From NCBI RefSeq assembly GCF_022429565.1, contig NZ_CP092487.1, positions 336,001-400,000 on the forward strand: 64,000 nucleotides of DNA. The letters run 5' to 3'. Of the stretch, positions 878 through 26,834 are shown one piece after another (positions within the stretch are counted from its first letter, which is position 1; every line of letters begins with the position of its first letter). The notes under the pieces were generated by a model. The model had not been told where the DNA came from. It did not search any database and worked only from the letters and a program-made list of their open reading frames with translations. The stretch comes from Lutibacter sp. A64. GTDB taxonomy: Bacteria; Bacteroidota; Bacteroidia; Flavobacteriales; Flavobacteriaceae. The position numbers and the translations under genes were made by a program.

Positions 878-891
878 ATAGTGCAGGATAG
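878..891 (+). promoter_or_regulatory. Shared PUL element, copy 1 (ATAGTGCAGGATAG)
   Basis: First of four copies of ATAGTNCAGGATNG. It lies 55 bases before the ATG at 947 and follows the 144-base gap after rhaM. A possible Bacteroidota -7 box of the TAnnTTTG type (TAAATTTG, 822-829) lies further upstream. The match to the copies before the SusC, PL28 and GH2 genes is direct from sequence; a role as operator or leader element is inferred. Confidence 0.55.
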
Positions 892-946
892 ATTCTTTTT
901 TTTATTCAATTAATTTTATTTTTATTAATTAATATTGAATTTTAGT

Positions 947-2866
947 ATGAAAAGACGCTCTTTTGTGCATTTATCAGCAATAGGAAGTTTAGGTTTAATG
1001 TTACCGTATGGGTGCATATTAGATAGCAGTAAACATAAGGTGATGAACAGTAAAGATATGACTGCGTTTCAAAAACAGTCGTTTAATTTATTGAAAACAT
1101 GGTGTGATGCCATGATAAGAGCTCAAGTAAATAATCCCAGTAATCCTGTTTTAGACGGTACACTTTATTGTCATGCCTGTGATACGGTTCATGGTCGAGC
1201 GAATGATGCTATCTATCCATTAATGTATATGGCCGACGCTACTGGAGATCAGAAGTATTTAGATGCAGCTATAAAATTGATGGATTGGTCTAAAAATGTA
1301 GATAAACCAGATGGTAGTGGAAGTTGGACAAACGATTTAAATCCTAAATCTTGGAATGGAATTACGGTGTTTACAGCCATTGCTTTAGGTGAAGCTTTAC
1401 ACCACCATGGACATTTGCTAACAAAGGAAATGAAAGAAAAATGGGAAGCGCGTCTCAAAGCAGGTATAGACTTTGTGTATCGTAAATTTGATATGCATTT
1501 CAGTCATATTAATTACAGATTTACGGCCATTTATGCACTTCGCTTTTTAGGCGATTATTTTAATGAAGAAAAGTATATTGCAAGAAGCAAAGAGTTTGCA
1601 GCCTTAATTCCCAAATACTTAACTGAACCGAATAAGCTAATTTTTGGTGAAGACAAGCCAGATAATGAAAAAAGTGCTAAAGGTTTGTATCCAGTAGATA
1701 TTGGCTATAATGTAGAAGAAACTTTAAACGGTTTAGTACAATATGCAATTATAGAACAAGATGAGGAGTTACTAAAACTTCTCACTGAATCTATGAACGG
1801 GCATTTAGAATTTATGTTACCAGATGGCGCTTGGGATAATAGTTTTGGAACACGTCAAAATAAATGGACGTATTGGGGTAGTAGGACTACAGATGGTTGT
1901 CAACCTGCATTTGCTTTAATGGCTAATAGAAATCCAGCTTTTGGTACAGCTGCTGTTTTAAATACAGAACTGTTAGAGCGTTGTACTGTAAATGGGTTGT
2001 TAGCTGGAGGGGTGCATTATAAATCATATGGCGTTAAGCCGTGTATGCATCACACATTTTCTCATGCAAAAAATTTAGCATTTGTTTTAGATAATACAGA
2101 TAAGTTACAGAACGTAGATAAAGAAAAACCAATTCCTAGAGCTGTAAAAGATGGTGTAAAACACTTTCCTGAATTAGACGTTTGGTTAGGAGCAAGAGGG
2201 CCATGGAAAAGTACAGTGTCTTCTTATGATCAAATTTGGAAGAAAAAATATTCAGTGGCAGCTACCGGCGGATCATTAGCTGTTTTGTGGCATAAAAAAG
2301 TAGGGCCTTTATTTACAGCTAGTATGGCAGAATATATGTTGGTAGAACCAAACAATCAACAACAGCAACCGGAAGAAGATTTTTGTTTAACACCTCGTGT
2401 TGAGCGATTTGTAAATGATGTTTGGTATACAAATATTCACGATTTAAAAGCGATAGTTAAAAATACTGATGAAAATGGAATTATAAATTTTGAAGTATTA
2501 GCAACACTCACAAATAGAGAAAAAGAAACACTTGGCACAAGTGGAGGTTTTAAATTGAATTACTTATTTGATAAAGAAATAACAACAATTAAAGCGTTAA
2601 GAACAACAAGTGAAGAAAATGGTGATACATTAGTATTGCCAATTATATCTTCAACAGGTGAAAAAGTAGTTCAAACTTCAGAAAATAGTATCGAAATTCA
2701 TAAAGATGGTGGCGTAGTTGTAATGGAGTCAAACGTGCCAATAACACTCAAAGTATCTGAAAAGGAACGTATTTTTAATCAAGTGCCAGGTATGGAGGTG
2801 CTGCCAATACTATTAGGTTTTCCTAAAGGAGTAATCAACGTGAATTGTACAATAACAATAATTTAA
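947..2866 (+). CDS. Secreted two-domain alpha/alpha-toroid plus beta-sheet protein, putative polysaccharide lyase or dehydratase
   Basis: The start is taken at ATG 947 (639 residues) because the frame upstream only offers a TTG at 935. The N-terminus MKRRSFVHLSAIGSLG has a twin-arginine RRxF pattern and then a lipobox-like LPYGC, so Tat export with lipidation is possible. Residues about 40-390 are helix-rich with toroid-like repeats (LMYMADATGDQKYLDAAIKL; FTAIALGEALHHHG). His/Tyr-rich stretches such as HYKSYGVKPCMHHTFSHAK could form an active site. Residues about 430-639 look like a beta-sandwich. This layout is seen in lyases of the heparinase and related folds. An oligosaccharide dehydratase acting on GlcA/IdoA-Rha3S ends is known from ulvan degradation, and this protein is a candidate for such a role, but I cannot assign the family. 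It heads unit A, ahead of two GH78 genes. Confidence 0.6.
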   Translation: MKRRSFVHLSAIGSLGLMLPYGCILDSSKHKVMNSKDMTAFQKQSFNLLKTWCDAMIRAQVNNPSNPVLDGTLYCHACDTVHGRANDAIYPLMYMADATGDQKYLDAAIKLMDWSKNVDKPDGSGSWTNDLNPKSWNGITVFTAIALGEALHHHGHLLTKEMKEKWEARLKAGIDFVYRKFDMHFSHINYRFTAIYALRFLGDYFNEEKYIARSKEFAALIPKYLTEPNKLIFGEDKPDNEKSAKGLYPVDIGYNVEETLNGLVQYAIIEQDEELLKLLTESMNGHLEFMLPDGAWDNSFGTRQNKWTYWGSRTTDGCQPAFALMANRNPAFGTAAVLNTELLERCTVNGLLAGGVHYKSYGVKPCMHHTFSHAKNLAFVLDNTDKLQNVDKEKPIPRAVKDGVKHFPELDVWLGARGPWKSTVSSYDQIWKKKYSVAATGGSLAVLWHKKVGPLFTASMAEYMLVEPNNQQQQPEEDFCLTPRVERFVNDVWYTNIHDLKAIVKNTDENGIINFEVLATLTNREKETLGTSGGFKLNYLFDKEITTIKALRTTSEENGDTLVLPIISSTGEKVVQTSENSIEIHKDGGVVVMESNVPITLKVSEKERIFNQVPGMEVLPILLGFPKGVINVNCTITII

Positions 2867-2901
2867 AAAAAATCTAGCTTAAAAATTAAAATAATTTTCT
2901 A

Positions 2902-5685
2902 ATGCATCTAAAAACTATTATTTATCAAGTTCTCTTTTTTTTCTCTTTTTTAGGGATTACGTCTTGTGCTCAAAATTATATTCAAAAGCCAAATAAATTA
3001 AAACTATCAGAAGGTTTTATAAATCCAGTAGGGTTCTATAATCCAAAACCTACTTTTTCTTGGCAAATACCTCTTTCAGATACTAATAAAAGTCAAACAG
3101 CATACCAAATTGTAGTAGCAAGTTCACCTGATTTGTTGCCTAATAGCGCAGATTTATGGGATTCTAAAAAACAACAATCAGAGCAATCAACTTGGATACA
3201 ATACAAAGGAAAAACATTAAGTTCTCGTCAAAAAGTATATTGGAAAGTAAAATACTGGAATCAAAACGGACAAGCTTCAACTTGGAGTGACATAAATACG
3301 TTTGAATTAGGTTTATTAAATAACAGCGATTGGAAAGCAAAATGGACAGGATTAGATACTGCAAAAGATAGTATAAAGGGCGTTAGAAAATTTTTAATGC
3401 ACAGACCTCAATATTTAAGAAAAAGTTTTGATTTACCTTCTAACATTGAATCGGCTAGATTATACATTACTTCAAAAGGAATTTTTGATGTTCATTTAAA
3501 TGGAGAAGATGTAAGTGATGATGTGTTAGCACCTGGCTGGACACCCTACAACAAACGTATTGAAACATTAACCTACAATGTTACAGATTTGTTGTCTTCG
3601 GGTAAAAATGCAATAGCTGTTGAATTGGCTTCAGGTTGGCATTCAGGAAGAATTAGTAGAGGAAAAGCAGTATACGAAAATTTTGCTTCACCAAAAATTT
3701 TATGTCAGTTAGAAGTAACCTTAAAAGATGGTTCTAAAGAAATAATTGTTTCTGACGCATCTTGGAGAGGAACTACAAATGGACCAATAAGATTAGCAGG
3801 CCTTTATGATGGTGAAGTATACAATGCCAATTTAGAAATGCCAAATTGGACAACAAATACGTTTGACGATGCATCTTGGAAAGATACAGAGGTAGAGGCC
3901 ATAGCTGATAGTGTAAAACTGGCACCAAAACGTCATGAAACTGTTAAAACAACGGCGGTTTTAGAAAATGTAGAAATTGTATCAACTACAAAATCTTCTG
4001 TAATATTCAATATGAAACAAAATATGTTGGGTGTGCCAAAAGTAACCGTACCTATGAAAAAAGGGGATACACTTACAATTCGTTTTTCTGAAATGTTACT
4101 GTCTGATGGTACGTTTTATACAAAAAACTATCGTTCGGCAAAATCAACCGATTATTACATTGCTGCCAAAGATGGTGTTATTGAATATACACCAAAATTC
4201 ACATTTCATGGGTTTCAATATATTGAGTTATCAGGGTATGACAACTCAGTAAAACCAACTACAAATTGGGTGAAAGGTTTGGTGCAACATTCTAATTTTC
4301 AAAAAAATGGAACATTTACTTCATCACATGAAAAATTAAATCAATTACAAAGCAATATTACTTGGGGGTTACGAGACAACCTTTTAGATATTCCTACAGA
4401 TTGTCCGCAACGTGATGAACGTTTAGGTTGGACAGGAGATGCGCAAGTAATTTCGCCAACGGCAATGTACAATTATAAAATGCACGCGTTTTGGACAGCT
4501 TGGTTACAAAGTATGCGCGAAACACAATCTGAACATGATAATGGTTTGGTACCTTTTATTATACCAGATGTACTTCAAAATAATAGAGCTAGTTCTGGTT
4601 GGGGAGACGCCTGTGTAATTATTCCTTGGGATATTTACAACACTACAGGAGATAAAACCGTTTTGGAAGAAAATTACGAAATGGGAAAAAAATGGGTTGG
4701 GTACTACCAATCTAAATCAAATAATTATATACCAACTATACATTCTTTTAGAGATTGGTTGCAACCATACCCAGAAAAAGGCGGAAAAATGGGAAATAGA
4801 GGTGATACACCAGGAAGCTTTGTAAACGCGGCTTATTTTGCGCATTCAGCTCATTTGGTGTCTAAAATTGCAGGAGTTTTAGGCAATATTGATGATGAAA
4901 AAAAATACAAAAATTTGTATAAAGAAATAGCTTTAGCTTTTGAAAACAAGTTTTTTGATAAGAACGGGAAATATCAAAATAAAAAACAAACGCAAACCGC
5001 ATATTTACTTGCCATTTATTTTGATTTATTACAACCAGAAACCAAAATAAAAGCGCAAAAACACTTGTTAGAAACTATTAAAAATGCTGATAACCATTTA
5101 GGAACCGGATTTTTAGGAACGCCAATTTTACCAAAAGTTTTAGATGATATGGGAGAGATTGAGTTGATGTATAAAATTTTGTTTAAAGAAACCTATCCTT
5201 CTTGGTTTTATTCTATCAATCAAGGCGCAACTACAATGTGGGAACGTTGGAATAGTTTCAGCAAAGCAAATGGTTACAATCCGCAAAGTATGAATAGTTT
5301 AAACCATTATGCGTATGGTGCTGTTGGGCAATGGATGTATGAACGTATTGCTGGACTTTCGGCGATAGAACCTGGTTATAAAAAACTAAGAATTGCACCA
5401 ATACCAAATACTGAATTTTTGAATGCAGCAGCTGCTAGTTTAAATACATCTTACGGAAAAGCATCTTCTTCTTGGAAAATAGAAAACAATACATTTAATT
5501 TAGATGTAGTTATTCCGCCAAATACCACTGCAGAAATAAATATTCCGTATAATACTTTAGATAGTTTATTGGTAAACGGAAATATTTTCAAAGAAAATTC
5601 AAATATAAAATTGATAGATTCAGAAAAAATGTCAATCAAAATTTTGGCACAACCAGGAACATATAATTTTCAAACTAAATTTTAA
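2902..5685 (+). CDS. GH78 alpha-L-rhamnosidase, tandem copy 1
   Basis: A 927-residue lipoprotein (lipobox FLGITSC) with the full GH78 layout: an Fn3-like domain (about 30-150), a Bac_rhamnosid_N sugar-binding domain (about 165-340), an (alpha/alpha)6 catalytic barrel (about 470-810) and a C-terminal beta-sandwich. The family signature DCPQRDERLGW is present with Glu506, and the second conserved acid is Glu781 in TTMWERWNS. The enzyme would release terminal alpha-L-rhamnose from oligosaccharides by inversion. Residues after the lipid Cys (AQNYIQKPNK) are not acidic, which suggests the protein stays on the periplasmic side. It is followed after only 4 bases by a close paralogue, so the pair arose by tandem duplication. 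Confidence 0.92.
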   Translation: MHLKTIIYQVLFFFSFLGITSCAQNYIQKPNKLKLSEGFINPVGFYNPKPTFSWQIPLSDTNKSQTAYQIVVASSPDLLPNSADLWDSKKQQSEQSTWIQYKGKTLSSRQKVYWKVKYWNQNGQASTWSDINTFELGLLNNSDWKAKWTGLDTAKDSIKGVRKFLMHRPQYLRKSFDLPSNIESARLYITSKGIFDVHLNGEDVSDDVLAPGWTPYNKRIETLTYNVTDLLSSGKNAIAVELASGWHSGRISRGKAVYENFASPKILCQLEVTLKDGSKEIIVSDASWRGTTNGPIRLAGLYDGEVYNANLEMPNWTTNTFDDASWKDTEVEAIADSVKLAPKRHETVKTTAVLENVEIVSTTKSSVIFNMKQNMLGVPKVTVPMKKGDTLTIRFSEMLLSDGTFYTKNYRSAKSTDYYIAAKDGVIEYTPKFTFHGFQYIELSGYDNSVKPTTNWVKGLVQHSNFQKNGTFTSSHEKLNQLQSNITWGLRDNLLDIPTDCPQRDERLGWTGDAQVISPTAMYNYKMHAFWTAWLQSMRETQSEHDNGLVPFIIPDVLQNNRASSGWGDACVIIPWDIYNTTGDKTVLEENYEMGKKWVGYYQSKSNNYIPTIHSFRDWLQPYPEKGGKMGNRGDTPGSFVNAAYFAHSAHLVSKIAGVLGNIDDEKKYKNLYKEIALAFENKFFDKNGKYQNKKQTQTAYLLAIYFDLLQPETKIKAQKHLLETIKNADNHLGTGFLGTPILPKVLDDMGEIELMYKILFKETYPSWFYSINQGATTMWERWNSFSKANGYNPQSMNSLNHYAYGAVGQWMYERIAGLSAIEPGYKKLRIAPIPNTEFLNAAAASLNTSYGKASSSWKIENNTFNLDVVIPPNTTAEINIPYNTLDSLLVNGNIFKENSNIKLIDSEKMSIKILAQPGTYNFQTKF

Positions 5686-5689
5686 TCAA

Positions 5690-8464: not shown

Positions 8465-8468
8465 TTAA

Positions 8469-9437: not shown

Positions 9438-9444
9438 AATAGAA

Positions 9445-10944: not shown

Positions 10945-10965
10945 TGTGATTTTAAATATTAAATT

Positions 10966-12408: not shown

Positions 12409-12453
12409 AAGTGTTTTGTTAAAACAGAATAAGTGAAATAGAAACTAAAAACA

Positions 12454-14031
12454 ATGAAAAAAGTAGCATATTTACTATTGTTAGTAGTATTAATTTCGTG
12501 TCACTCAAAAATAGAAGAAGTACAAGTTTAAAAGCCAAACATCCTGTTTATTTTGGCCGATGATTTAGGATATTCTGATTTGAGTGTTATGGGGAGTACG
12601 TATTATGAAACTCCTAATATTGATGGAATTGCTGAGAATGGAATGCTATTTACAAATGGGTATGCAGGTTGCCAAGTTTGCAGCCCGTCTCGTGCTACAA
12701 TAATGACAGGGCAATTTACTGCTAGGCACGGTATTACTGATTGGATTGGCGCACCTGAAGGTGAAAAATGGAGAGCAAAAAACGTTATACAAAAGTACTT
12801 CCTGCAGCATACAAACATAATATGGATACAAGTATCGTAACACTGCCAATGGCTCTAAAAAAAAGCAGGTTATACCACTTTTTTCGAAGGAAAATGGCAT
12901 TTAGGAGCTAAAGGGTATTACCCTGAAGATTATGGTTTTGATATAAATAAAGGTGGTTTTCATAGAGGAAGTCCTGACGGAGGGTATTTTGACCCGTATA
13001 AGAATCCTAAGTTGAAAAATCAGCAACCAGGAGAAAACCTTTCTATGCGTTTGGCAAAAGAGACCGTTAATTTTATAAATGCTTCAAAAGACACACCTTT
13101 TTTAGCATATTTATCATTTTACGCAGTTCATGGGTCTATTCAAACTAGTAAAGAGAAGTGGGTGAAATATCGTGAAAAAGCAGTAGTAAAAGGAGTCACA
13201 GAAAAAGGCTTTGAAGAAGGTGATTTATTGCCTATGCGAAAATGTCAAGACAATCCGGTTTATGCAGGTTTAATAGAAACAATGGATGACGCCGTAGGAA
13301 TGGTTTTAAATGCATTGAAAGAGAGTGGTATGGATAAAAACACCATTGTTATTTTTACTTCAGACAATGGAGGAGTAACTTCTGGAGATAATTATTCAAC
13401 CAGTAATTTACCTTTAAAAGGAGGTAAGGGCTACCAGTGGGAAGGTGGTATTAGAATTCCATACATTGTAAGTGTACCGCGGATTAATAATAAAGGGACG
13501 CAAAGTGATGTTCCTGTTGCTGGAAGTGATTTTTTTCCCACATTATTAGATTTAGCTAACTTACCTTTACTCTTTGAAGCTCATAAAGATGGTAAAAGTA
13601 TTTTACCTGTATTAAAAGGGGGAACTATAAAAGAGCGTCCGTTGTATTGGCATTATCCACATTATGGAAATCAAGGAGGAAGACCAGTCTTTATCATACG
13701 AAAAGGAAATTGGAAACTGATTCATTTTTGGGAAGATGGGCGAAATGAGTTATACAATTTAGTTGAAGACATTCATGAAGATACCAATTTAGCAAAATCA
13801 GAGCCAGAAAGAACATTAGAAATGTCTAAAACACTGCTTAATTGGTTAAATCAAGTTGGCGCTAAATACCCTCAACACGATTTACTTTACAATGCAACTA
13901 AAGAGCAGGAAGCTATTTCAAAAAAGAAAATAAACATGTTTAAGAAGCATGAAGCACTTCGAAAAAAAATGCTAAATAAAGATTGGCAACCCAATAAAAC
14001 ATGGTGGGGAAGTATTACAACAGTTGATTAG
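12454..14031 (+). pseudogene. Degenerate S1 sulfatase (stop after signal peptide and two frameshifts)
   Basis: The frame starts at ATG 12454 with a lipoprotein signal (VVLISC) and runs into TAA at 12529-12531, directly before the mature sulfatase start KPNILFILADDLGYSD. The frame then continues through an intact formylglycine site, CSPSRATIMTG, to about 12780. There one base appears lost near an A6 run (12777-12782). The correct product (RYTKVLPAAYKHN...) is then in another frame until an extra A in the A8 run at 12857-12864 restores the first frame, which stays open to TAG 14029-14031. The protein would be about 525 residues with FTSDNGGVTSG metal ligands. The stop plus two indels mean no full product is expected. 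Sequencing error could explain the A-tract indels but not easily the stop. Confidence 0.85.
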
Positions 14032-14142
14032 TAAATTCATGTATAATTAAAAAATATTTACTAATAATCTATTTTTTGTTTAAAAAGAAATAGTTGTAAA
14101 TTTCTATAAAAAAATAAGAATAATACTTAAATTTCAGAAAAG

Positions 14143-14156
14143 CTATAACGTTATAG
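14143..14156. promoter_or_regulatory. Perfect palindrome CTATAACGTTATAG
   Basis: A 14-base perfect dyad with a central ACGT lies 30 bases upstream of the candidate -7 box TAGTTTTG and 42 bases upstream of the shared element. Size and symmetry fit a dimeric regulator site. No protein can be named, and an equal palindrome was not seen at the other three element-bearing promoters. Confidence 0.35.
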
Positions 14157-14197
14157 TGATATTATTCATAAAAAATTATGAAACATAGTTTTGCAGT

Positions 14198-14211
14198 ATA
14201 GTACAGGATGG
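14198..14211 (+). promoter_or_regulatory. Shared PUL element, copy 2 (ATAGTACAGGATGG)
   Basis: Second copy of ATAGTNCAGGATNG, 118 bases before the SusC start at 14330. A TAnnTTTG match, TAGTTTTG (14186-14193), ends 4 bases before it. If that box is the real -7 element, transcription would start within or next to the shared element, placing it at the 5' end of the leader. Function is inferred from its repetition. Confidence 0.55.
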
Positions 14212-14329
14212 AGATGCTTGATACTCTTTGTAATATTGTTACATATTATTAAGCTTTGGCTTTTAAAGTTTTAAAGAATAATAATTAAAATTAACTCAAA
14301 CATAATTTATATTAAAATTTAAACTAAAC

Positions 14330-17300
14330 ATGAAACAAAATTCAAAAAAACAATTTTCAGTTTCTAAATTAACGCTAATACTGGCGATAGTTTTTTCCAG
14401 TTTTACAGCAATTAATTTAGAGGCTCAAAATATGATTTCTGGGGTTGTTACAGATGATGGTGGTATGCCATTGCCTGGAGTAACTGTGTTGCAAAAAGGA
14501 ACTACTAGAGGAGCTTCAACAGATTTTGAAGGAAACTATTCTATTGAATTAACTTCAGGTGAAAAAACTTTAGTGTTTTCTTATCTAGGTTTTAAAACCG
14601 TGGAGATTGCAGTTAATAATAGAACAACTATCAATGTATCTTTGGTAGGAGATGTAGAAAGCTTAGAAGAAGTAGTTCTTGTTGGTTACGGTACTCAAAA
14701 GAAAGAGAGTGTTGTAGGGGCTATTACACAGGTAAAAGGAGCCGAATTAATGGAAAAGGCAGCAGGTATAGCTAACGTTGAAGAAGCACTGCAAGGTAAT
14801 TTACCTGGTGTAACAGCTATACAAGGAAGTGGTATTCCTGGTCAATCCGATATGCAAATTTTTATTCGTGGTCAAAGTTCATGGAACGGTTCTGGAGGAC
14901 CACTAATTCTTGTTGATGGAGTTAAAAGGTCTATGACTGATGTTGATATGAATGACATTGAAAAACTTTCTGTGCTTAAAGATGCTTCTGCCACAGCTGT
15001 TTTTGGTGTAGAAGGTGCTAATGGTGTAATATTAATTACTACTAAGCGTGGTCAAGAAGGTAAGGCTCAGTTATCTTTAGCTGTTAATTCTACTATTAAA
15101 TTTGTTTCAAAATTACCAGAAAAACTGGATTCGTATGATGCAATTATGCAGGCTAATAGTTCCATTCTTAGAGAATTATCAGTTTCACCAATAGGATGGG
15201 GTGATTTTACACCAATGGATATTGCTGATAGATATCGCAACCCTGGATCTGTAGAAGAAAGCTACAGATATCCTAATATTAATTATGAAGATGAATTGTT
15301 GAAAGATTTTGCTCAAGATTATAGAGTTAATTTGTCTGTACGTGGAGGTAATAAATCAGCAAAGTATTTTGGAAGTTTAGCCTTCCAAACTGTAAATGAT
15401 ATTTTTGATGGTAGTAAATACGACAGCGGAAAAGGATATTTAGGTGAATATAAATACGAACGTTTTAATTACCGAAGTAATGTTGATTTTAAAGTTACAA
15501 GTACTACAGAACTTTCGGTAAACCTTTCGGGTTACCTAGGAACAAGAGAATCACCTAGTAACTTAAATACGGTAGTAAATGGTATTTATGAAATTGCACC
15601 TGACTTATATACACCCGTATATCCTGATGGTTATTATGGACAATATATAGATGATGGTTTTGGTATATCTAATCCTATTGTAAGTTTAACCAATACAGGG
15701 TATGATACTTACACTAACTTTCAGGTAAATACAGATTTTATACTAAAGCAAAAACTGGATTTTATAACAGAAGGTTTGTCACTTCAAGGAAGATTTTCTC
15801 TTGATAATAATATGAGAAGTAAACAATCTTTAGTTGATAGAGGTGCAGATGGTGTTGAAAACTTAATATATAGAATTTATGAAGGAGAAAATGAAACTTT
15901 TTTATCTCCAAATGGTGTAAACGATTTTGATTTTGCTGTAACACCTTGGACTGTGGGTGCTTCAGATGTGGAGGATAATCAAAGAGATCGAAGAATGGTT
16001 TATGATGTATCAATGAATTATAACCAAACGTTTGCAAACAAACATAATGTTACAGGGTTGTTTTTATTTAGAAGACAAGAAACAGCTATAGGAAGTGTGT
16101 TCCCTACGTTTCGTGAAAATTGGGTAGCTAGAGCTACTTATGATTATGACAACAGATACTTTTTAGATATAAATGGAGCTTATAATGGTTCAGAAAAATT
16201 TGGACCAGGATTTCGTTTTGACTTGTTCCCTTCTGCAGCAGCAGGTTGGACTGTAACAAACGAAACGTTTATGGAGGATGTAGATTGGATGAATAAACTT
16301 AAAGTTAGAGGTTCTTACGGACTTATTGGTGATGATAATTTTAGTGGTAGATGGAAATATATTACCCAATGGTCAAATGGTGGAGCAGCATTTTTGGTGC
16401 CAAGTAACTATAAAGGAAGATCACCATACATTTACTATACAGAGAAACAAGTTGGTAACCCTAATCTTCAATGGGAAACAGCTATCAAGTATAATATTGG
16501 TGCTGAAATAGGATTATTTAACAATTCAATAACTGCGGAATTTGATTATTTTGCAGAAAACAGAGATAATATTCTTATAACTGGTTCGCAAAGAGCTGTA
16601 CCAGACTGGTTTGGAGCAATACCTCCAGATTTTAATAAAGGAAAAGTAGAGGTTAGAGGATATGAAATTGTACTGGGTGCAAAACATACGTTTGAAAATG
16701 GAGTAAATCTTTTTGGTAATTTCAATTTTACGCAAGCAAAAGATGAAGTTATAGAAAGAGAAGATCCTGTATTTAAACCTTTTTACCAAAAGGCAGCGGG
16801 GTATGCTATAGGTCAAATAAGAACAGCTATTCCTGGAGAAATTATGACAAACTGGGATGATATTTATATGTCTACACCACAAGTAACAAACCAAAACCTA
16901 ACACGAGTTGGGTATTATGATGTTGTTGATTTTGATGGAGATGGTATATACAATAGTTCTTTTGATAACGCACCATATGGTTATCCAGTGCGACCACAAA
17001 GAAACTGGAGTGCTACTTTAGGAGCAAAATACAAAGGTTTTACTGTTTCGGCTCAGTTGTATGGAACACAAAATGCTTTAAGATCTTATGGAAATAGAAC
17101 ATTCAGCAATCAAACTAATTTGATTTTTACACAAGATTTAGATTACTGGACTGTTAATACGCCAAATAATACTGACACGCAGCCTGCTTGGAGAGCACAA
17201 GGTGCAACCAATCCTAGAGATAACTATTATGATGCATCATTAACTAGGCTTAAAGCGGTTTCCCTATCTTATAATATTCCAGCCGAAACTTGTGAAAAAC

Positions 17301-17467
17301 TTGGAGTTAAGTCACTTCAAATTTTTGTGAATGGTAATAATTTGATTTTATGGACTGACCTACCTGATGACAGAGAATTTAATGGTACAACAACCGCAGA
17401 CTCTAGTTTTAGAGGAGATTATCCAACCTTAAAAAGGTTTAACTTCGGTTTTAATATGAATTTTTAA
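14330..17467 (+). CDS. SusC-like TonB-dependent oligosaccharide transporter 1
   Basis: A 1045-residue outer-membrane importer. Residues 1-33 are a signal peptide ending at LEAQ. A CarboxypepD_reg-like beta-sandwich (about 36-105) follows with DFEGNYSI. The typical SusC segment EEVVLVGYGTQKK (113-125) precedes the plug, which includes VLKDASATAVFG and ANGVILITTKRG. The remainder is a 22-strand barrel ending in the aromatic sequence FNFGFNMNF. It pairs with the SusD 10 bases downstream to take up oligosaccharides using TonB energy. It opens unit B and is preceded by the shared promoter element, consistent with induction together with the enzymes. Confidence 0.95.
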   Translation: MKQNSKKQFSVSKLTLILAIVFSSFTAINLEAQNMISGVVTDDGGMPLPGVTVLQKGTTRGASTDFEGNYSIELTSGEKTLVFSYLGFKTVEIAVNNRTTINVSLVGDVESLEEVVLVGYGTQKKESVVGAITQVKGAELMEKAAGIANVEEALQGNLPGVTAIQGSGIPGQSDMQIFIRGQSSWNGSGGPLILVDGVKRSMTDVDMNDIEKLSVLKDASATAVFGVEGANGVILITTKRGQEGKAQLSLAVNSTIKFVSKLPEKLDSYDAIMQANSSILRELSVSPIGWGDFTPMDIADRYRNPGSVEESYRYPNINYEDELLKDFAQDYRVNLSVRGGNKSAKYFGSLAFQTVNDIFDGSKYDSGKGYLGEYKYERFNYRSNVDFKVTSTTELSVNLSGYLGTRESPSNLNTVVNGIYEIAPDLYTPVYPDGYYGQYIDDGFGISNPIVSLTNTGYDTYTNFQVNTDFILKQKLDFITEGLSLQGRFSLDNNMRSKQSLVDRGADGVENLIYRIYEGENETFLSPNGVNDFDFAVTPWTVGASDVEDNQRDRRMVYDVSMNYNQTFANKHNVTGLFLFRRQETAIGSVFPTFRENWVARATYDYDNRYFLDINGAYNGSEKFGPGFRFDLFPSAAAGWTVTNETFMEDVDWMNKLKVRGSYGLIGDDNFSGRWKYITQWSNGGAAFLVPSNYKGRSPYIYYTEKQVGNPNLQWETAIKYNIGAEIGLFNNSITAEFDYFAENRDNILITGSQRAVPDWFGAIPPDFNKGKVEVRGYEIVLGAKHTFENGVNLFGNFNFTQAKDEVIEREDPVFKPFYQKAAGYAIGQIRTAIPGEIMTNWDDIYMSTPQVTNQNLTRVGYYDVVDFDGDGIYNSSFDNAPYGYPVRPQRNWSATLGAKYKGFTVSAQLYGTQNALRSYGNRTFSNQTNLIFTQDLDYWTVNTPNNTDTQPAWRAQGATNPRDNYYDASLTRLKAVSLSYNIPAETCEKLGVKSLQIFVNGNNLILWTDLPDDREFNGTTTADSSFRGDYPTLKRFNFGFNMNF

Positions 17468-17477
17468 AAAGAACGTG

Positions 17478-19346: not shown

Positions 19347-19384
19347 TTTTATACAATTCGTTTTAAATTAAAATAAAGAAAAAA

Positions 19385-22300
19385 ATGAAGATAAATAAAT
19401 TTTATAAATTGCTTACCCTTGTGTGCTTAGCCATGTTTTGCTTTAGTAATTTTACAATAGCACAAACAAATGGTACAGAGGTAAAAGCAACCATAGTTGA
19501 TGAACAGGGTAACCCTATAAACAACGTAAATGTTTTTGGCCCTAAAGGAATTCAAACAAGTACAGATAACAACGGACAGTTTCAAATTAAATTACTTAGT
19601 AGTGAATCTGTTGTAATACAAAAAAAAGGATATGAATCGGAACTCATAAATAAATCTGATTTGACAGATGTTATTACTTTAGAGAAATCTCCTTTTTTAG
19701 CATCAGAAGATGATCAAATTAAGATGGGAGTTACTACTAAAAACCGACGTGAAATTGTTGGAGCTGTATCGTCAATTAATACAGAAGATCGATTAACATA
19801 CGATAATACGCAATGGGTTAGAGACTACATTAGTGGTTTAATGTTGGGTGTTAAAGGTTCCTCTAATATTAGAGGTTTAGGAAATGCCATTTTTGTTATT
19901 GATGGGGTAGTTGGTCGTGATCCAAATATTTTAAATATGGAAGAGGTTGACCAGATAACTATTCTAAAAGATGCTAATTCTGTTGCTTTATATGGTAGTC
20001 AAGGAAGAAATGGTGTTATTGTAATTAATACTAAACGTGGTAAAATAAATAAAAAAGAAACGAATATTAACGTTCGTTCGGGGTTTAAAACTCCAATTGC
20101 TTTACCAAATTATCTGGGTTCAGCGGAATTCATGCAACTATTTAATGAGGCAAGAATTAATGATGGACAAGAAATTACTTTTTTACCTGAGGATATTGAT
20201 CCATACTTAAATAATTCAAATGAATATCGTTATCCAGATGTTGATTTTTATTCAAATGATTATATTGAACCATTTGTGCTTTCAACAAGTGTTATTACAG
20301 AGTTTTCTGGTGGAAATGATAAATCGCAATATTACGTTAATGCAGGCTGGAACCATAACCAATCATGGGTAAGTGTCAATCCAGATGCAAATGCTGGTGA
20401 TAATCGATTTAATTTAAGAGGTAATATAGATTTTCAAGTAAACGATTGGATTAAAAGTAGTATTGATGGAGTAGCAATTATTAGCACAAGTAAAAGCTCT
20501 TTTTCTAATTTGTTGAAGGAGGGTACTAGTTTTAAACCAAATTCTTATGTGCCTCTAATACCTGTAAGCATGATAGATACAATTGGTAACCCAGTACTTG
20601 CTGCTCAAGTAGAAGCCGCTAGAATATACGACGGAATGTTATTAGGAGGAGCGCAACAGTTTCAAGATAATACTCCTGTTGCAAATGCAATAGCCGGAGG
20701 TTATCAAAATAATGTGATACGTTCTACACAGTTTAATAATTCAATCGATTTTGATCTCGATAGAATTACTGAAGGTTTATCTGCAAGAACGTATTTAAGT
20801 TTTGATTTTTATGATTCGTATAAATTATCAATTAAAAACCAATACAAAGTTTACGAAGCAGTATGGACGGATGATAAAATTACTGGTTTAACACCTTATG
20901 GAACTGACTTAAAAGATTTAACAGAAAATGTTAGTACTAATGATTTTGTATCTCGATTAGGTTTTTATGGACTTGTAAATTATCAAAAAACTATTGCTGA
21001 GAATCACTCAATAAATAGTACCTTATTAGGGTATTATAATTCAATGAATAAAAACAATGTGTTACAAACTGATAAAGATACTCACCTTGGATTTCAATTA
21101 GCTTATAATTATAAGAAAAAAATGTTTGCTGATTTTAGTGGAACCTACACTAGTTCAATTAAATTACCCGAAGGTAACAGAGGTGGTCTATCGCCTACAC
21201 TTGGATTAGGGTATATACTTAGTGAAGAGCCTTTCTTAAAAAATAATACAATTATTGACTATTTGAAGATAAAAGCATCAGGAGGTATTATAAAGTCTGA
21301 TATTGGAATTGATGGTTACTATTTGTATAATGAAACCTATTCTAATGGAGGAACCTTTAATTGGGCTGATGGGCAAAGTTCTAACCGTAAACAAACTATC
21401 TCTCAAGGAGCCAATCCTAATATGGGGTATGAAGAACGTATAGACTTAAATATTGGTTTTGAAAGTTATTTAATGAAATCACTTTGGTTTGAATTTAATT
21501 ATTTTAAAACAGAACTAGATAAACAATTAACTTTTTTAAGTGATAAATATCCTTCTTATTATAATACATTTAGACCTTATGATAATTTTAATAAAAATGA
21601 ATATAAAGGATTTGAAATTGGATTAAATTACAATAAAACTATGAATGATTTTACTGTAAGTGTAGGTGCAAATATTTTGTATAGCGAATCTATAGCTGTA
21701 AAACGATCTGAAGTTAATGAGTTTGATTACCAAAATAGAGTTGGAAAAGAAACATCATCAATTTTTGGATTAGTTGATCAAGGTTTTTATGCTATAAATG
21801 ATTTTGATATTGATGGAGAGGGTAATTACATTTTAAAAGATGGTTTAGCAGTGCCTAGTTTTGGTTCAGTTCAACCTGGAGATGTAAAGTATATGGATCA
21901 AAACGGAGACAATACTATTGATAATGATGATATGGTAGCTATTGGGCAATCTAGTAGTCCTTGGACCTATGGTGTAAATCTTAACTTTAAATATAAAGCG
22001 TTTAATTTATTTATTTTAGGTACAGGTCAATTCGGTGGCGATGGCAATAAATTAAGTAATAGTTTTAATAATTATTATGCACCAAATGGTACTAATAAAT
22101 ATTCAGAAGTTGTTTTAGATCGTTGGACACCTGAAACAGCTAGTACAGCAACATTTCCAAGATTGTCGTCTGGAAACAATCAAAACAATTTTAGAACATC
22201 AACTTTTTGGATATACGACAATAGTTTCTTTAAAATTAACCGTGCTCAGTTAACATATGAATTTACGGATAACTTATGTGATAAACTTGGTATGGATGAT

Positions 22301-22426
22301 TTTAGTATGAATATTTCAGGAACAAACCTTTTTGAAGTAGCTAAAAATAAAGATATTCGTCAATTAACAATTGGTGGAACACCGCAATCAAGAGCTTATA
22401 TGCTTGGCTTGAGAATGTCATTTTAA
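19385..22426 (+). CDS. SusC-like TonB-dependent transporter 2 (divergent)
   Basis: A 1013-residue outer-membrane importer with signal peptide 1-26 (ending FTIAQ), a CarboxypepD_reg-like domain (about 30-100), a plug (GLGNAIFVIDGVVG; ITILKDANSVALYGSQGRNG) and a barrel ending in SRAYMLGLRMSF. The region before the plug, SEDDQIKMGVTTKNRREIVG, lacks the usual VVVGYGTQKK segment. This places it in a divergent SusC branch that often accompanies a second, standard SusC in the same locus. It begins 38 bases after SusD 1 and is followed by its own SusD. A different oligosaccharide size or sulfation pattern is a plausible reason for two systems. Confidence 0.93.
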   Translation: MKINKFYKLLTLVCLAMFCFSNFTIAQTNGTEVKATIVDEQGNPINNVNVFGPKGIQTSTDNNGQFQIKLLSSESVVIQKKGYESELINKSDLTDVITLEKSPFLASEDDQIKMGVTTKNRREIVGAVSSINTEDRLTYDNTQWVRDYISGLMLGVKGSSNIRGLGNAIFVIDGVVGRDPNILNMEEVDQITILKDANSVALYGSQGRNGVIVINTKRGKINKKETNINVRSGFKTPIALPNYLGSAEFMQLFNEARINDGQEITFLPEDIDPYLNNSNEYRYPDVDFYSNDYIEPFVLSTSVITEFSGGNDKSQYYVNAGWNHNQSWVSVNPDANAGDNRFNLRGNIDFQVNDWIKSSIDGVAIISTSKSSFSNLLKEGTSFKPNSYVPLIPVSMIDTIGNPVLAAQVEAARIYDGMLLGGAQQFQDNTPVANAIAGGYQNNVIRSTQFNNSIDFDLDRITEGLSARTYLSFDFYDSYKLSIKNQYKVYEAVWTDDKITGLTPYGTDLKDLTENVSTNDFVSRLGFYGLVNYQKTIAENHSINSTLLGYYNSMNKNNVLQTDKDTHLGFQLAYNYKKKMFADFSGTYTSSIKLPEGNRGGLSPTLGLGYILSEEPFLKNNTIIDYLKIKASGGIIKSDIGIDGYYLYNETYSNGGTFNWADGQSSNRKQTISQGANPNMGYEERIDLNIGFESYLMKSLWFEFNYFKTELDKQLTFLSDKYPSYYNTFRPYDNFNKNEYKGFEIGLNYNKTMNDFTVSVGANILYSESIAVKRSEVNEFDYQNRVGKETSSIFGLVDQGFYAINDFDIDGEGNYILKDGLAVPSFGSVQPGDVKYMDQNGDNTIDNDDMVAIGQSSSPWTYGVNLNFKYKAFNLFILGTGQFGGDGNKLSNSFNNYYAPNGTNKYSEVVLDRWTPETASTATFPRLSSGNNQNNFRTSTFWIYDNSFFKINRAQLTYEFTDNLCDKLGMDDFSMNISGTNLFEVAKNKDIRQLTIGGTPQSRAYMLGLRMSF

Positions 22427-22453
22427 TACAAATAGAAAATTTAGATAAATAAA

Positions 22454-24160
22454 ATGAAAAATTTAATAAAATATATATTAATTATGTTGGTTTTTACCGG
22501 CATAATTGCCTGTGATCCTATCGATGAAAACAGGTTAGACTTTGATTTTGTAAATTCTGATCCTGCAACAGCAGAAGGACTATTATTGCAAGGATATTCT
22601 GGCTTAATTGATCAATTTGTATTTTCTGAAGGAGCAACAGATGACGCTGTTAATAATCAATTAAGTAACGGGTATAAACGAATGGCTCTTGGCGAACTGT
22701 CAGCTCAGTACAATCCTGCTTCGCGTTGGAATAGTTTTGAAAGGGTTTTTTACATAAATAGATTTTTAGAAATAATTAATGCAGGTGAGATTCAATGGAG
22801 TAGAGATGAAGAAACAAATGAGCTGTTTAATATGAGAATGAAGGGAGAAGCATTAGCACTTAGAGCATTACATCACTTTTATGTGCTGCAAGCTCACGCT
22901 GGAGAATCAACTTCGGGCGAATTGTTAGGAATTCCATATTTTACTGAATTTATTGAAGCTAATGGAAATTTTAATGTACCACGTTTGTCGTTTGAAGAAT
23001 CTGTACAGAAAATTATAGCAGATTTTGATGAAGCCTTAACCTTATTACCTACAGATTATGGGAACAATGCTTCTGATCCATGGTATGCTAATGTTGATAT
23101 AGGAAAGTTTAATGTTGTTAATGGTACTGCATATGAATTACGAATATCTGGTAGAATAGTGAGAGCACTAAAAGCTCGTTTGGCTTTATTTGCTGCTAGC
23201 CCATCATATTTAAATGGTCAAAAAGGATATTATAATGTAGCAGCAGAAAATGCAAGTGACGTGTTAACTACTATTGGAGGAGTTTCTGGTTTAGCTGCAG
23301 ATGGTGTTGAATTTTACACTTCTGATGAAGATATTTACAGTGGTGAAATGCTATGGCGTGGTTCTATTGGAGGTAATAGTTCAGCTTACGAAGAAAGAAT
23401 GTTTCCTCCTTCTGTAAATGGTAAAGGAGAGATTAATCCAACGCAAAATTTAGTAATGGCATTTCCAATGAAAAATGGATTTCCTGCAACTGTAGCTAAC
23501 GGCTACGATCCTCAAAATCCATATGAAAACAGAGATCCAAGATTAAAAAAGTATATTGTAGTTAACGGATCTTCTTTTGGAGGTGGTACTATTAATACTG
23601 GTGTAGGTGGTGGAATTGACAGGTTAGATTCAATTCCTCAATTTTCAACAACTACAGGATATTACTTAAAAAAATTATTGCAACCAGGTGTTAGAATCAA
23701 TAATGATGGAACAACAACTGGCCAAAAGCACTTTGACGTTTACTTTAGATACACTGAGTTGTTTTTAATATTGGCAGAGGCAGCTAACGAAATTGGAGGT
23801 CCAGACAATAAAATTGATGGTATGAGTGCTCGTGATATTATTGCGGCAATTCGTGAAAGAGCAGGTATAACACAACCAGATAATTATTTGGCATCTATTT
23901 CATCAAAAGAAGCAATGCGTGATCTTATTAGAAATGAACGTCGCTTAGAATTGAGCTTTGAAGGGCATAGATTTTGGGATCTTAGAAGGTGGGGATTAGC
24001 ACTTAATGAAACTGCTGAAGGTTACTTTTATGATGGAAATAATTATGTCGAATTACCTTCTGTTGAAGTTAGAAATTATCAACCGTTTGCTACCTATATG
24101 CCAATTCCAAATAGTGAAACTTTGAAATTTTCTGAACTTGAGCAAAATAAAGGCTGGTAA
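22454..24160 (+). CDS. SusD/RagB-like surface glycan-binding lipoprotein 2
   Basis: A 568-residue SusD with lipid Cys20 followed by DPIDENRLDFDF, again strongly acidic. The SusD fold is supported by MKGEALALRALHHFYVLQAHAG near residue 135 and the C-terminal RNERRLELSFEGHRFWDLRRWG. It lies 27 bases after SusC 2, its expected partner. The two SusD proteins of this unit share motifs but little overall sequence, so the pairs are not a recent duplication. Confidence 0.94.
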   Translation: MKNLIKYILIMLVFTGIIACDPIDENRLDFDFVNSDPATAEGLLLQGYSGLIDQFVFSEGATDDAVNNQLSNGYKRMALGELSAQYNPASRWNSFERVFYINRFLEIINAGEIQWSRDEETNELFNMRMKGEALALRALHHFYVLQAHAGESTSGELLGIPYFTEFIEANGNFNVPRLSFEESVQKIIADFDEALTLLPTDYGNNASDPWYANVDIGKFNVVNGTAYELRISGRIVRALKARLALFAASPSYLNGQKGYYNVAAENASDVLTTIGGVSGLAADGVEFYTSDEDIYSGEMLWRGSIGGNSSAYEERMFPPSVNGKGEINPTQNLVMAFPMKNGFPATVANGYDPQNPYENRDPRLKKYIVVNGSSFGGGTINTGVGGGIDRLDSIPQFSTTTGYYLKKLLQPGVRINNDGTTTGQKHFDVYFRYTELFLILAEAANEIGGPDNKIDGMSARDIIAAIRERAGITQPDNYLASISSKEAMRDLIRNERRLELSFEGHRFWDLRRWGLALNETAEGYFYDGNNYVELPSVEVRNYQPFATYMPIPNSETLKFSELEQNKGW

Positions 24161-24199
24161 ACTAAATATGTATTTTAAACAATTAAAAACGCATTAAAT

Positions 24200-25264
24200 A
24201 TGAAATTAAAAAATTTAATAATATTAGCAGCCGTCTCATTTAGTTTGATGGCATGTGAGAACCAGACCAATGAATTTGATGACTTTGGTTCAACTTCGGT
24301 ATATTTCCCTTATCAAACACCTGTAAGAACACTAATTTTAGGGGAATATGATTTAGGATTTAATGAAAACGACAATAATGGGCGTTTTGAAATAGGTGTA
24401 GTTATGTCTGGAGTTTATGAAAATACAACAGATCGAAAAGTGTATTTTGAACAAGCTCCAGAATTGATTAATCCAGCTACACTAGTTGATATAGATTCGG
24501 TAAATGTAAAGGTGCTGCCATCGTCATATTATACTATTGAACAAGAAAGTCCGGTAACAATTCCGTCAGGATCTACAAAAGGACGTATTCCTGTCCAACT
24601 TGAAGACGCATTTTTTAATGACCCACAATCATTTGCAGATTTTGGAGAAGTGCATTATGTAATTCCTTTAAAAATAACTGATTTTGAGCAATTAGATTCA
24701 CTTTTAACCGGAGTACCTGCAGAAGATATAGTAAACCCTATTAAGATAAAAAGTGATGATTGGGATACACTGCCAAAGGATTATACCCTTTTTGGTATTA
24801 AATTTATGAATAAATATCAAGGTATATATTTACGTCGAGGTGAAGATAAAATGACAGATGCTTCAGGTGAAACTGTAAGTACTGTTTATCAAGCTGAATA
24901 TGTGGTACAAGACGAGTTGGTGCCATTAAATACAAGCGGTAGATATAAAGTTGAACTATCAAATATTATTCGTAGAGGAGGGCTTCCTAGTCCTGGAAAT
25001 GTAAACATAGAATTAGCATTTAATGAAAATGGAGATTGTACGATTAGCAGTTTTGGAGATGATATTTATAACGTTTCAGGTTCAGGAAAGTTTGAAACAG
25101 ATGGAGATGAATGGGGTGGAGAAAAACGTGATGTTATATATTTAGATTATTCTTATACAGACGCAGCTAATAACGAAACGCACGTAGTTAAAGATACTCT
25201 AGTAATTAGAGATAGAAATGTTAAATTTGAGGAATTTGACATTGAATTAAAGGTGTCACAATAA
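24200..25264 (+). CDS. DUF1735-type surface lipoprotein, putative glycan-binding accessory
   Basis: A 354-residue lipoprotein (lipobox SLMAC, Cys19) with ENQTNEFDDFGS after the Cys, an acidic surface-export-like sequence. Residues about 25-165 resemble the DUF1735 domain (VYFPYQTPVRTLILGEYD; PSSYYTIEQESPVTIPSG), often encoded directly after SusD. The remainder (about 180-354) is a lipocalin-like or beta-sandwich domain that I cannot name with certainty. By position it takes the SusE/SusF-like slot, so glycan binding at the cell surface is the likely role. It is the last gene of unit B, with a strong terminator 45 bases downstream. Confidence 0.75.
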   Translation: MKLKNLIILAAVSFSLMACENQTNEFDDFGSTSVYFPYQTPVRTLILGEYDLGFNENDNNGRFEIGVVMSGVYENTTDRKVYFEQAPELINPATLVDIDSVNVKVLPSSYYTIEQESPVTIPSGSTKGRIPVQLEDAFFNDPQSFADFGEVHYVIPLKITDFEQLDSLLTGVPAEDIVNPIKIKSDDWDTLPKDYTLFGIKFMNKYQGIYLRRGEDKMTDASGETVSTVYQAEYVVQDELVPLNTSGRYKVELSNIIRRGGLPSPGNVNIELAFNENGDCTISSFGDDIYNVSGSGKFETDGDEWGGEKRDVIYLDYSYTDAANNETHVVKDTLVIRDRNVKFEEFDIELKVSQ

Positions 25265-25308
25265 TGCTTTCAATTAGACAATAGTTAAATAAACTATATA
25301 AATTAATA

Positions 25309-25342
25309 AAAATAGCGGAGGATAAACCTTCGCTATTTTTTT
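25309..25342 (+). terminator. Intrinsic terminator after unit B
   Basis: A 13-base-pair stem AAAATAGCGGAGG / CCTTCGCTATTTT (one G-U pair) encloses the 5-base loop ATAAA and runs into a T tract (25336-25342). This is the strongest classic rho-independent terminator in the window and closes the SusC/SusD unit. Confidence 0.85.
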
Positions 25343-25566
25343 ACCCATAGTTGTGTGATTAATATTAAATTTAAGTTGTTTATATTTTATTCAAATTAAA
25401 TTGTATCTTCTTTTTTAATTAAGTATACTAGTGATTACTTTTATAAAGTAATATTTTTTTTAAAATCGATAAAGAAATTTAGTAATATTTAAAGTTTATC
25501 TTTTGATATGAATGTGCTGTATTTCTTTTAATTTGTAAAATATACTATGGTTGAAATTCAATCAGG

Positions 25567-25580
25567 ATAGTTCAGGATTG
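25567..25580 (+). promoter_or_regulatory. Shared PUL element, copy 3 (ATAGTTCAGGATTG)
   Basis: Third copy of ATAGTNCAGGATNG, 48 bases before the PL28-like start codon. It is preceded by an overlapping ATCAGGATAG, so CAGGAT occurs twice with a 10-base period, about one helical turn. Followed by TTATAACATTTTTAAACTTT, which resembles the sequence after copy 4. Confidence 0.55.
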
Positions 25581-25628
25581 TTATAACATTTTTAAACTTT
25601 AATTTTAAAGAAAATATATTTATAAGTA

Positions 25629-26543
25629 ATGAAAATTTTTAAATTTATATACAAATTCATATCAATAGCTGTATTACTTTTATTTGTGGTTTTTTTTTCT
25701 TGTCAATCGGATAATGAGTCTGAAGAAATAATAGAAATTATTGAGGAGGAACCCGATCCAATAATAAAAGAAAGTGATGAAGATATAGGAGCATATACTA
25801 CTTGCAATCCAGATGGAGAAAATGCGACTAGAACGTCATATGATTTGCCAAACCCTGTAAATATTGGTACTATTGATGATAGAACTTGCTACGCAAATTA
25901 TAAAGAAAGTCGTATTTATAATAAAGTTTGGGGTGTGTATAATATTACACATAATTCTAATAAATTTGACGCTACGCTGCAACCTAGGATGGAACGCTCA
26001 TTACCCATTGCAAATAAAACGGGTGTAGGAACTTATGTTAAATTTAATGGAACCGTTAGAATTCTTGAAGTAGGTGATACTACAGGAGACAACAGTGATG
26101 GTACCTATATAGCACAAGCAAAAGGAAAACATACAGGTGGTGGTGGTTCTCCAGACCCAGCTATATGTTTGTATTTAGCTAAGCCTGTTTATGGAAAAGG
26201 CTGCAATGTAAACAAGCAAGTGGCCTTCGATATCTATGCGGAGCGTATTCTAGAACGTGGTGGAGAAGGAAGTGGTAGAGAAGTGGTTTTACTAAAGCGA
26301 GTAGATAAAAATGAGCAAATTGACTTTGAGCTAAAGGTAGGTTTTAAACAAGATCCAAACGATGCAACAAAAAAAATACACTATTGTAATGCTGTAATTG
26401 GAGGTAAAGCCTTTAATTGGAACATTCCCGAGTCAGAAAGAGGAACACAATCTAAAATTAGATATGGTGCATACCGCGTTAAAGGTGGTAGAGCACAGAT
26501 TAGATGGGCAAATACTACACACGAAAAAGTAGAGAAAGATTAA
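25629..26543 (+). CDS. PL28-like ulvan lyase, surface lipoprotein
   Basis: A 304-residue lipoprotein. The lipobox ends at Cys25, followed by QSDNESEEIIEIIEEEPD, a long acidic stretch expected for surface-exposed lipoproteins. From about residue 55 the sequence (ATRTSYDLPNP; RTCYANYKESRIYNKVWG; LQPRMERSLP; GKHTGGGGSPDPAICLY; FNWNIPESERG; IRYGAYRVKGGRAQIRWAN) matches my recollection of PL28 endo-acting ulvan lyases, a beta-jelly-roll fold distantly like PL7 alginate lyases. Such enzymes cut next to uronic acid by beta-elimination, leaving an unsaturated uronyl end. Known secreted relatives carry a type IX secretion domain; none is seen here, so lipid anchoring replaces it. It stands alone, with a terminator before and after and its own copy of the shared element. 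Confidence 0.75.
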   Translation: MKIFKFIYKFISIAVLLLFVVFFSCQSDNESEEIIEIIEEEPDPIIKESDEDIGAYTTCNPDGENATRTSYDLPNPVNIGTIDDRTCYANYKESRIYNKVWGVYNITHNSNKFDATLQPRMERSLPIANKTGVGTYVKFNGTVRILEVGDTTGDNSDGTYIAQAKGKHTGGGGSPDPAICLYLAKPVYGKGCNVNKQVAFDIYAERILERGGEGSGREVVLLKRVDKNEQIDFELKVGFKQDPNDATKKIHYCNAVIGGKAFNWNIPESERGTQSKIRYGAYRVKGGRAQIRWANTTHEKVEKD

Positions 26544-26556
26544 ATAATTATTTGAG

Positions 26557-26610
26557 TTATATTGGAAAAAAATGGTTTAAAGAAATTTCAACCATTTTTT
26601 TCCAATATAA
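26557..26610. terminator. 21-base-pair perfect inverted repeat, probable terminator
   Basis: The left arm 26557-26577 and right arm 26590-26610 are perfectly complementary over 21 bases around the 12-base loop TAAAGAAATTTC. Each arm carries a run of seven A or seven T. It begins 14 bases after the PL28-like stop codon. Its symmetry means it could stop transcription in either direction and protect the 3' end of the lyase message. Confidence 0.75.
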
Positions 26611-26731
26611 ATTATAATAGAAGCTTTTTTAAATATGATTCTTACTAATATTTAAGATTCAGATTATATTAATTCTGATAAATCTGAAATTTCACAATAC
26701 ATTTTACTATTTTTTTTATTCAAAAAGCATA

Positions 26732-26745
26732 ACACTGCAGGATGG
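26732..26745 (+). promoter_or_regulatory. Shared PUL element, copy 4 (ACACTGCAGGATGG)
   Basis: Fourth copy, 89 bases before the GH2 start. It keeps the TNCAGGATNG core and differs from copies 1-3 at two of the four bases before it (ACAC in place of ATAG). The CTGCAG inside it is a palindrome, but the other copies are not symmetric, so an asymmetric site is more likely. Confidence 0.5.
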
Positions 26746-26834
26746 TGAATACTGTTTTTACACTTAAATTTATTTAATTATTGATGTTTCATCAAAAATG
26801 GATAAAATAATAAATTAAAACTGTAAATATTAGT

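Follow-up and report, generated by a model that had tools for sequence, protein, structure and literature searches.

A tandem-repeat element before ulvan and rhamnose genes of Lutibacter sp. A64 reads as a rhamnose-regulon operator

The short element that recurs before the ulvan genes of Lutibacter sp. A64 reads as a rhamnose-regulon operator common to rhamnose and ulvan genes, and it is probably the operator of a GntR regulator, P0001, which we call RhaR-G. We have studied it in a stretch of 64,000 nucleotides, referred to here as the window (G000:C1:336001-400000), of a host genome of 4.03 Mb. From sequence comparisons we infer strongly that the regulator is P0001, and more weakly that rhamnose is its ligand, as the conserved neighbourhood with rhamnose genes suggests, and that it activates rather than represses. 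An operator defined by its sequence would make the ulvan regulon predictable from genomes and names a single candidate switch for it. The finding suggests that the monosaccharide rhamnose gates ulvan digestion in these bacteria, and the sites are candidate promoters for ulvan biotechnology.

Anatomy of the element in the window

The first-pass annotation had reported four copies of a 14-base element on the plus strand, and all four were found where it placed them: those at 878, 14198 and 25567 are exact, and the copy at 26732 has two mismatches with an exact TNCAGGATNG core. The 14-mer makes up most of a 20-bp site composed of two 10-bp direct repeats, (NNCAGNAYAG)(TNCAGGATNG), and it most likely represents the right-hand repeat and part of the left repeat of a predicted 20-bp operator. 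At no more than one mismatch the 14-mer matched the window four times against 0.12 expected, and the exact core five times against 1.13 expected; none of 100 dinucleotide shuffles reached either count. No excess was seen in the window at up to three mismatches, where 53 matches were found, 49.2 were expected and 27 of 100 shuffles reached 53. One of the five exact cores (308-317, minus strand) and one of the four 14-mers, that at 36102 with one mismatch, lie inside ORFs.

The repeat structure is visible in the autocorrelation of the sites, which peaks at a shift of 10 bp (0.62 for the host's own sites and 0.71 for those before PL28 genes), compared with a best palindromy of 0.40 and 0.38, respectively. 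For the sites before rhaD, the autocorrelation at shift 10 (0.63) is tied with that at shift 5, and single-axis palindromy reaches 0.61. The repeats are extended further in some relatives: in G152 (locus L186, 457-506) the 10-bp unit of the element recurs five times in tandem ahead of an ORF with a PL28 domain.

All four predicted operators lie on the plus strand, and each is followed on that strand by a predicted -7 box. They were scored with a weight matrix (PWM) built from 41 of 42 rhaD-first upstream regions, using strict and softened weights. Operator 1 (872-891, ACCATAATAG TGCAGGATAG) spans the annotated copy at 878-891 and precedes the unit from 935, which encodes a 643-aa protein that matches no Pfam family and then an alpha-L-rhamnosidase (Pfam) at 2902; it scores 6.5 with strict weights and 13.7, rank 4 of the window, with softened ones, and its box TAATTTTA (911-918) begins 19 bp past the site. 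Operator 2 (14192-14211, TGCAGTATAG TACAGGATGG; box TAATATTG at 14231-14238) is the top PWM match of the window, at 31.0 strict and 28.1 softened, and stands before the gene for a SusC-like receptor with a Plug domain (14330-17467). Softened rank 2 is a coding match at 1727, and rank 3 is operator 3 (25561-25580, ATCAGGATAG TTCAGGATTG; 8.5 strict, 15.3 softened), which together with its box TAATTTTA at 25600-25607 precedes the PL28 ulvan lyase gene (25629-26543; PL28 E=7.9e-122). The weakest copy is operator 4 (26726-26745, AGCATAACAC TGCAGGATGG), before a GH2 gene assigned with Pfam (26835-29900). Its strict score is below 6 and its softened score of 11.9 (rank 5) is inseparable from the matrix background, so this operator rests on its place and on the -7-type box TAAATTTA at +19 (26765-26772) rather than on the score.

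Fourteen window matches were listed with the softened matrix. None of them falls in the gaps before the hybrid two-component regulator (HTCS; 52652-56764, plus strand, Pfam) or before the second SusC gene, which agrees with the first-pass annotation. A degenerate copy that it had placed at 386-396, before rhaM, is not among these 14 either; of the matrix matches listed, none gives the L-rhamnose mutarotase gene rhaM itself (488-802, plus strand, PF05336) a separate operator. At 12455-14031 of the window a sulfatase-like gene, read by eye, seems to be interrupted, with a stop shortly past the signal peptide and a frame change near 12,850.

Distribution of the sites and their promoter spacing

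The sites are not confined to the window. The exact 14-mer occurs six times in the genome, always on the plus strand and at 288-405 kb, the occurrence at 288092 being inside an ORF. Genome-wide, 22 matches of the 14-mer were found at no more than one mismatch against 4 for the reversed control, and the core was found 44 times forward and 31 times reverse against 12 and 5 for its reversed control. We read 396 kb around the window for sites. On the plus strand, intergenic TNCAGGAT occurs in 13 gaps, each time 43-285 bp before an ORF, and only one match on the minus strand is intergenic; part of this strand bias is gene orientation, since 202 of the 242 ORFs of the region lie on the plus strand. 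With the matrix-scan sites at 308453, 317193, 324003 and 407576 added to these 13 gaps, the total is at least 17 sites, all on the plus strand and within one 161-kb stretch (261-423 kb), four of them in the window. Left out of this total were 261539, a second match in one gap, matches inside ORFs such as 337727, 264535 and 305625, and lower-scoring intergenic matches at 434185 (minus strand), 422767, 174281 and 192419. The idea that the element is specific to four ulvan units is thus too narrow, and an ulvan-only element was rejected, because it also precedes rha genes both here and in many genera. The strict matrix, at a score of 9 or more, gave 14 matches in the 396-kb region (13 intergenic, 14 of 14 on the plus strand) against none in a 400-kb control. 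With softened weights, region and control gave 19 versus 3 matches at 12 or more and 25 versus 11 at 11 or more.

The sites precede ulvan genes, the rhamnose operon, rhaT, and units with rhamnosidase, uronate and xylose genes. Their first genes encode a sulfatase-rhamnosidase fusion, two GH2 enzymes, a rhaD-dehydrogenase fusion, RhaT, a rhamnosidase-like protein that scores under the curated cut-off, a protein whose C-terminal domain is GH115, GH78, GH39, a short-chain dehydrogenase and GH106 (an ORF scanned except for its last 226 residues). Others encode the 643-aa protein, the SusC-like receptor, PL28 and two further GH2 enzymes, and the remaining first gene is a second GntR-PBP gene, ahead of genes that by eye look xylose-like. 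Glucuronate isomerase and a PfkB kinase come after the short-chain dehydrogenase, and in the rhamnose operon both isomerase and kinase score under the cut-offs of the rhamnose models that they match.

A box of the form TANN[TA]TT[GA] lies exactly at +19 in 15 of 17 own sites, 29 of 41 rhaD sites and 16 of 28 PL28 sites (own locus and L182 omitted from the last count), compared with 0.14-0.22 sites on average at any other offset. In the own sites TA stands at +19 in 17/17 and the exact TAnnTTTG in 6/17; three further PL28 boxes are at +18 and one at +20. Among rhaT-first promoters the +19 box was found in 0 of 32. With a TAnnTTTG-kind -7 box at a constant distance, the sites conform to Bacteroidota sigma-A promoters; in Flavobacterium psychrophilum TAnnTTTG spans -12 to -5 (PMC9723704). 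With a box at +19, the site would therefore extend from about -51 to -32 and cover the place of a -33 element, and we take its occupant to be an activator that stands in for this element.

The first-pass annotation had left the choice between a regulator site and a leader. Its reading of a common regulatory element with a single orientation was borne out, and the leader was not. That the element is part of a 5' leader or an RNA element would fit its position 43-285 bp before ORF starts, and yet we find it hardly credible, given that the -7-type box at the fixed +19 puts the element upstream of the predicted transcript.

Could the same protein on the same operator act as a repressor, covering the -33 region until rhamnose releases it? 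Operator and regulator would remain those of our preferred reading and only the sign would change; we consider this unlikely, though it deserves serious weight. The predicted operator does overlap the predicted promoter. GntR-family regulators are mostly repressors and the chimeric GntR regulator AraR of Bacillus subtilis is one, and a GntR repressor of alginate catabolism in the marine flavobacterium Zobellia was reportedly found by Dudek in 2020, all of which we count for repression. The entry 4egy, too, is named 'Arabinose metabolism transcriptional repressor'. However, a constant 19-bp spacing and orientation at 17 promoters, with the operator at the -33 position, is more natural for an activator.

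The candidate regulator and its relatives

RhaR-G (350 aa) is encoded on the minus strand at genome positions 284475-285527, roughly 50 kb ahead of the window, where its gene adjoins the L-rhamnose operon. Its N-terminal GntR winged helix (PF00392, 37.2 bits, cut-off 27) makes it a member of the GntR family, and its C-terminal Peripla_BP_3 domain (PF13377, 31.7 bits, cut-off 26.5) is of the kind found in AraR-type regulators; no DeoR family match was obtained at E<=0.001. The AlphaFold model of the protein is poor (mean pLDDT 54). Between the gene and the rhamnose operon, at 285680-286130 (L015:5680-6130), lies an insertion-like remnant split over two frames, which we take to resemble an IS200-type transposase.

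In named Flavobacteriaceae, a RhaD-like enzyme is encoded within about 10 kb of the regulator in 74 of 80 loci and RhaT in 36 of 80, and the common layout has the regulator divergent from rhaD or rhaT. These loci were picked by their regulator, so the nearness of regulator and motif in them is partly a matter of selection. The strict TNCAGGAT stands before rhaD in 14 of the 21 regulator loci with rhaD in reach and is absent in 7, and in the 30 loci around the best P0001 matches TNCAGGAT occurs 43 times and its reversed form twice. We analysed rhaD-first and rhaT-first upstream regions apart. Unseeded expectation maximization (EM) returned ACgGTAtAGTACAGGATAc, which is the same motif, from 42 rhaD-first regions of other Flavobacteriaceae, and a close variant, TAAAGGATAGTACAGGACAG, from 32 rhaT-first regions, nearly all of Flavobacterium. 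In a search of the phylum, which took in some loci within the family, the strict tandem-CAG pattern matched in 2 of 26 further loci, and a wide spread of the operator code is not supported.

Regulator and motif also occur together. In a sample of 299 family genomes, with orthologs defined by E<=1e-100, the 60 genomes with a P0001 ortholog carry 4.70 motifs each against 0.88 for the reversed control. The 174 genomes without the regulator have 1.32 against 0.76, so that a slight excess remains. With our own genome left out, the difference in motifs has a Mann-Whitney p of 4e-18 and that in the control one of 0.18. The 44 regulator-positive genomes without PL28 still have 4.18 motifs against 0.93. 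In four regulator-positive genomes (G049, G121, G152 and G271) the search pattern matched nowhere.

PL28 was found in 20 of 397 genomes. The regulator is present in 16 of the 17 PL28 genomes of the 299-genome sample (Fisher 2e-11); the exception is G246, in which a strong site (24.6) accompanies PL28 and a close P0001 ortholog is lacking. For the PL28 promoters, 40 listed places gave 30 loci, of which 29, including our own, had enough upstream sequence; start codons were assigned by rule and the shuffles were mononucleotide only. Sense sites scoring 10 or more occur in 24 of these 29 regions from 20 genomes and antisense ones in 6, the remaining 5 having a sense score below 10, and the best site lies 39-87 bp before the assigned PL28 start in 26 of 29. 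The suggestion that the element is kept at the same gap in relatives was thus upheld for the PL28 gap, the one to which this result applies. In several relatives the regulator lies on one contig with PL28 and clusters of the motif (for example G265 C1 at 1.70-1.83 Mb, G163 C5 and G169 C107).

These distributions bear on which protein binds the element. One candidate other than RhaR-G would be a paralogous GntR-PBP regulator, the XylR-like protein encoded at 422803, binding all sites. GntR-PBP paralogs have the helix-turn-helix stretch SRDTV.KAYSILK in common, and related sites such as ACCAGAACAGAACAGAACGG are found at XylR-group genes. We nevertheless regard this as improbable: the XylR-group sites differ, having CAGAACAG and not CAGGATAG, and the 65 genomes with only weaker GntR-PBP relatives show little motif excess (1.28 motifs against 1.03 for the control). 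The XylR-group site CAGAACAG stands directly before the start codon. Two XylR-like GntR-PBP genes of the host (422803-423798 and 2501649-2502635) are 93% identical, and both kinds of site, at 422638 and 422767, are found at the one that lies in the ulvan region, the rhamnose-type site being extra. At loci L207 and L217 a further GntR-PBP group, 57% identical to XylR, is flanked by tandem repeats of the CAGGACAG/CAGGATAG type, which suggests an operator code across GntR-PBP paralogs.

It would be still more surprising if the element were bound by an AraC-type regulator (307424-308308) or by the HTCS of the window, a reading we hold to be very improbable. The AraC gene does track PL28, as 12 of the 60 regulator-positive genomes carry it and 11 of these are PL28 genomes, and passages on HTCS and AraC-family rhamnose sites describe direct repeats (PMC3878776, PMC3870299). 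On the other hand, the AraC ortholog occurs in only 12 of those 60 genomes, and an HTCS of more than 60% identity in 2, our own included. Some HTCS relative at E<=1e-200 exists in at least 34 of the 60 with ten candidates scored per genome, and 32 of these are more distant. The known HTCS and AraC-type repeats, as far as those passages go, have a 21-bp period and the element one of 10 bp, and among the matrix matches listed there is none before the HTCS or the SusC gene next to it. We therefore rejected the AraC-type protein and the HTCS as binders of the element, and an HTCS regulon on its period of 10 rather than about 21 bp and on the lack of conservation of the cognate HTCS with the sites. 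The AraC-type gene adjoins a site and is perhaps a second ulvan regulator.

A proposed switch and its place among known systems

If RhaR-G is the activator that we prefer, the following sequence of events may be envisaged. L-rhamnose, or a derivative of it, freed from ulvan would bind the sugar-binding domain of RhaR-G, which would then cover both repeats along a single face of the helix, between about -51 and -32, substitute for the -33 element and recruit RNA polymerase. The rhamnose pathway would be switched on in this way and, as part of one regulon with it, rhaT, rhamnosidases, PL28, SusC/D and the genes for uronate and xylose. Taken to its full extent, the proposal is that a GntR-PBP activator replaces the missing -33 element by means of tandem 10-bp repeats, that one monosaccharide-sensing switch and not an HTCS runs the 161-kb ulvan/rhamnose/uronate/xylose region with at least 17 promoters, and that the operators of paralogous sugar regulators can be read as one code, with CAGGATAG for rhamnose and CAGAACAG for xylose; for all of this together we would put the chances a little short of even. 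We found no paper naming a regulator of flavobacterial ulvan loci in the open-licence literature, which does not imply absence from print, and neither this regulator nor its motif is described in passages of open-licence ulvan and GntR papers. According to a passage of PMC12125979, it is uncommon for polysaccharide catabolism to be governed by the sensing of a monosaccharide.

Several known systems invite comparison. RhaR-G is like AraR-type regulators in joining a GntR winged helix to a domain of other origin (PF00392, PF13377). AraR operators are palindromic, whereas the host's own sites and those before PL28 look rather like tandem direct repeats, with a fixed promoter spacing; in the rhaD sites the two signals are about equal. 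The Zobellia regulator is reportedly alike in being a GntR protein of algal-polysaccharide catabolism and differs in its polysaccharide, alginate, and in being described as a repressor. AraR itself is presented as a minor chimeric GntR subfamily in passages of PMC4494728. In the same phylum, FucR and ManR of Bacteroides are GntR-family sugar regulators as well; a FucR motif is reported, with a regulon of one operon (PMC3878776, in part). They serve fucose and mannose pathways and RhaR-G presumably rhamnose. RhaR of Bacteroides, of the AraC family, and the HTCS regulons likewise use direct repeats as operators at sugar and polysaccharide loci, upstream of the genes, but with a period of about 21 bp and an AraC DNA-binding domain, and the RhaR regulon is one operon (passages of PMC3878776).

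The closest likeness in layout is to the DeoR-type rhamnose regulators, whose operators are described as two imperfect direct repeats with a 10-11 bp periodicity (Rodionova 2013, PMC3870299, in part). Here, too, tandem repeats of such a period precede rha genes in a rhamnose regulon. The rhamnose gene regulators listed in the passages of that paper are AraC, DeoR and LacI, and its main text contains neither 'gntr' nor 'flavobacteri' (0 occurrences each). Unlike the DeoR regulons, the present one would have a GntR regulator with a periplasmic-binding-like domain, outside the DeoR family, and would reach into the ulvan region. In this last respect it recalls AraR of Bacteroides thetaiotaomicron on arabinan genes, a cytoplasmic monosaccharide regulator that also acts on polysaccharide genes; that AraR, according to passages of PMC5061871, is a repressor beside an HTCS activator, whereas no HTCS is implicated in the switch proposed here.
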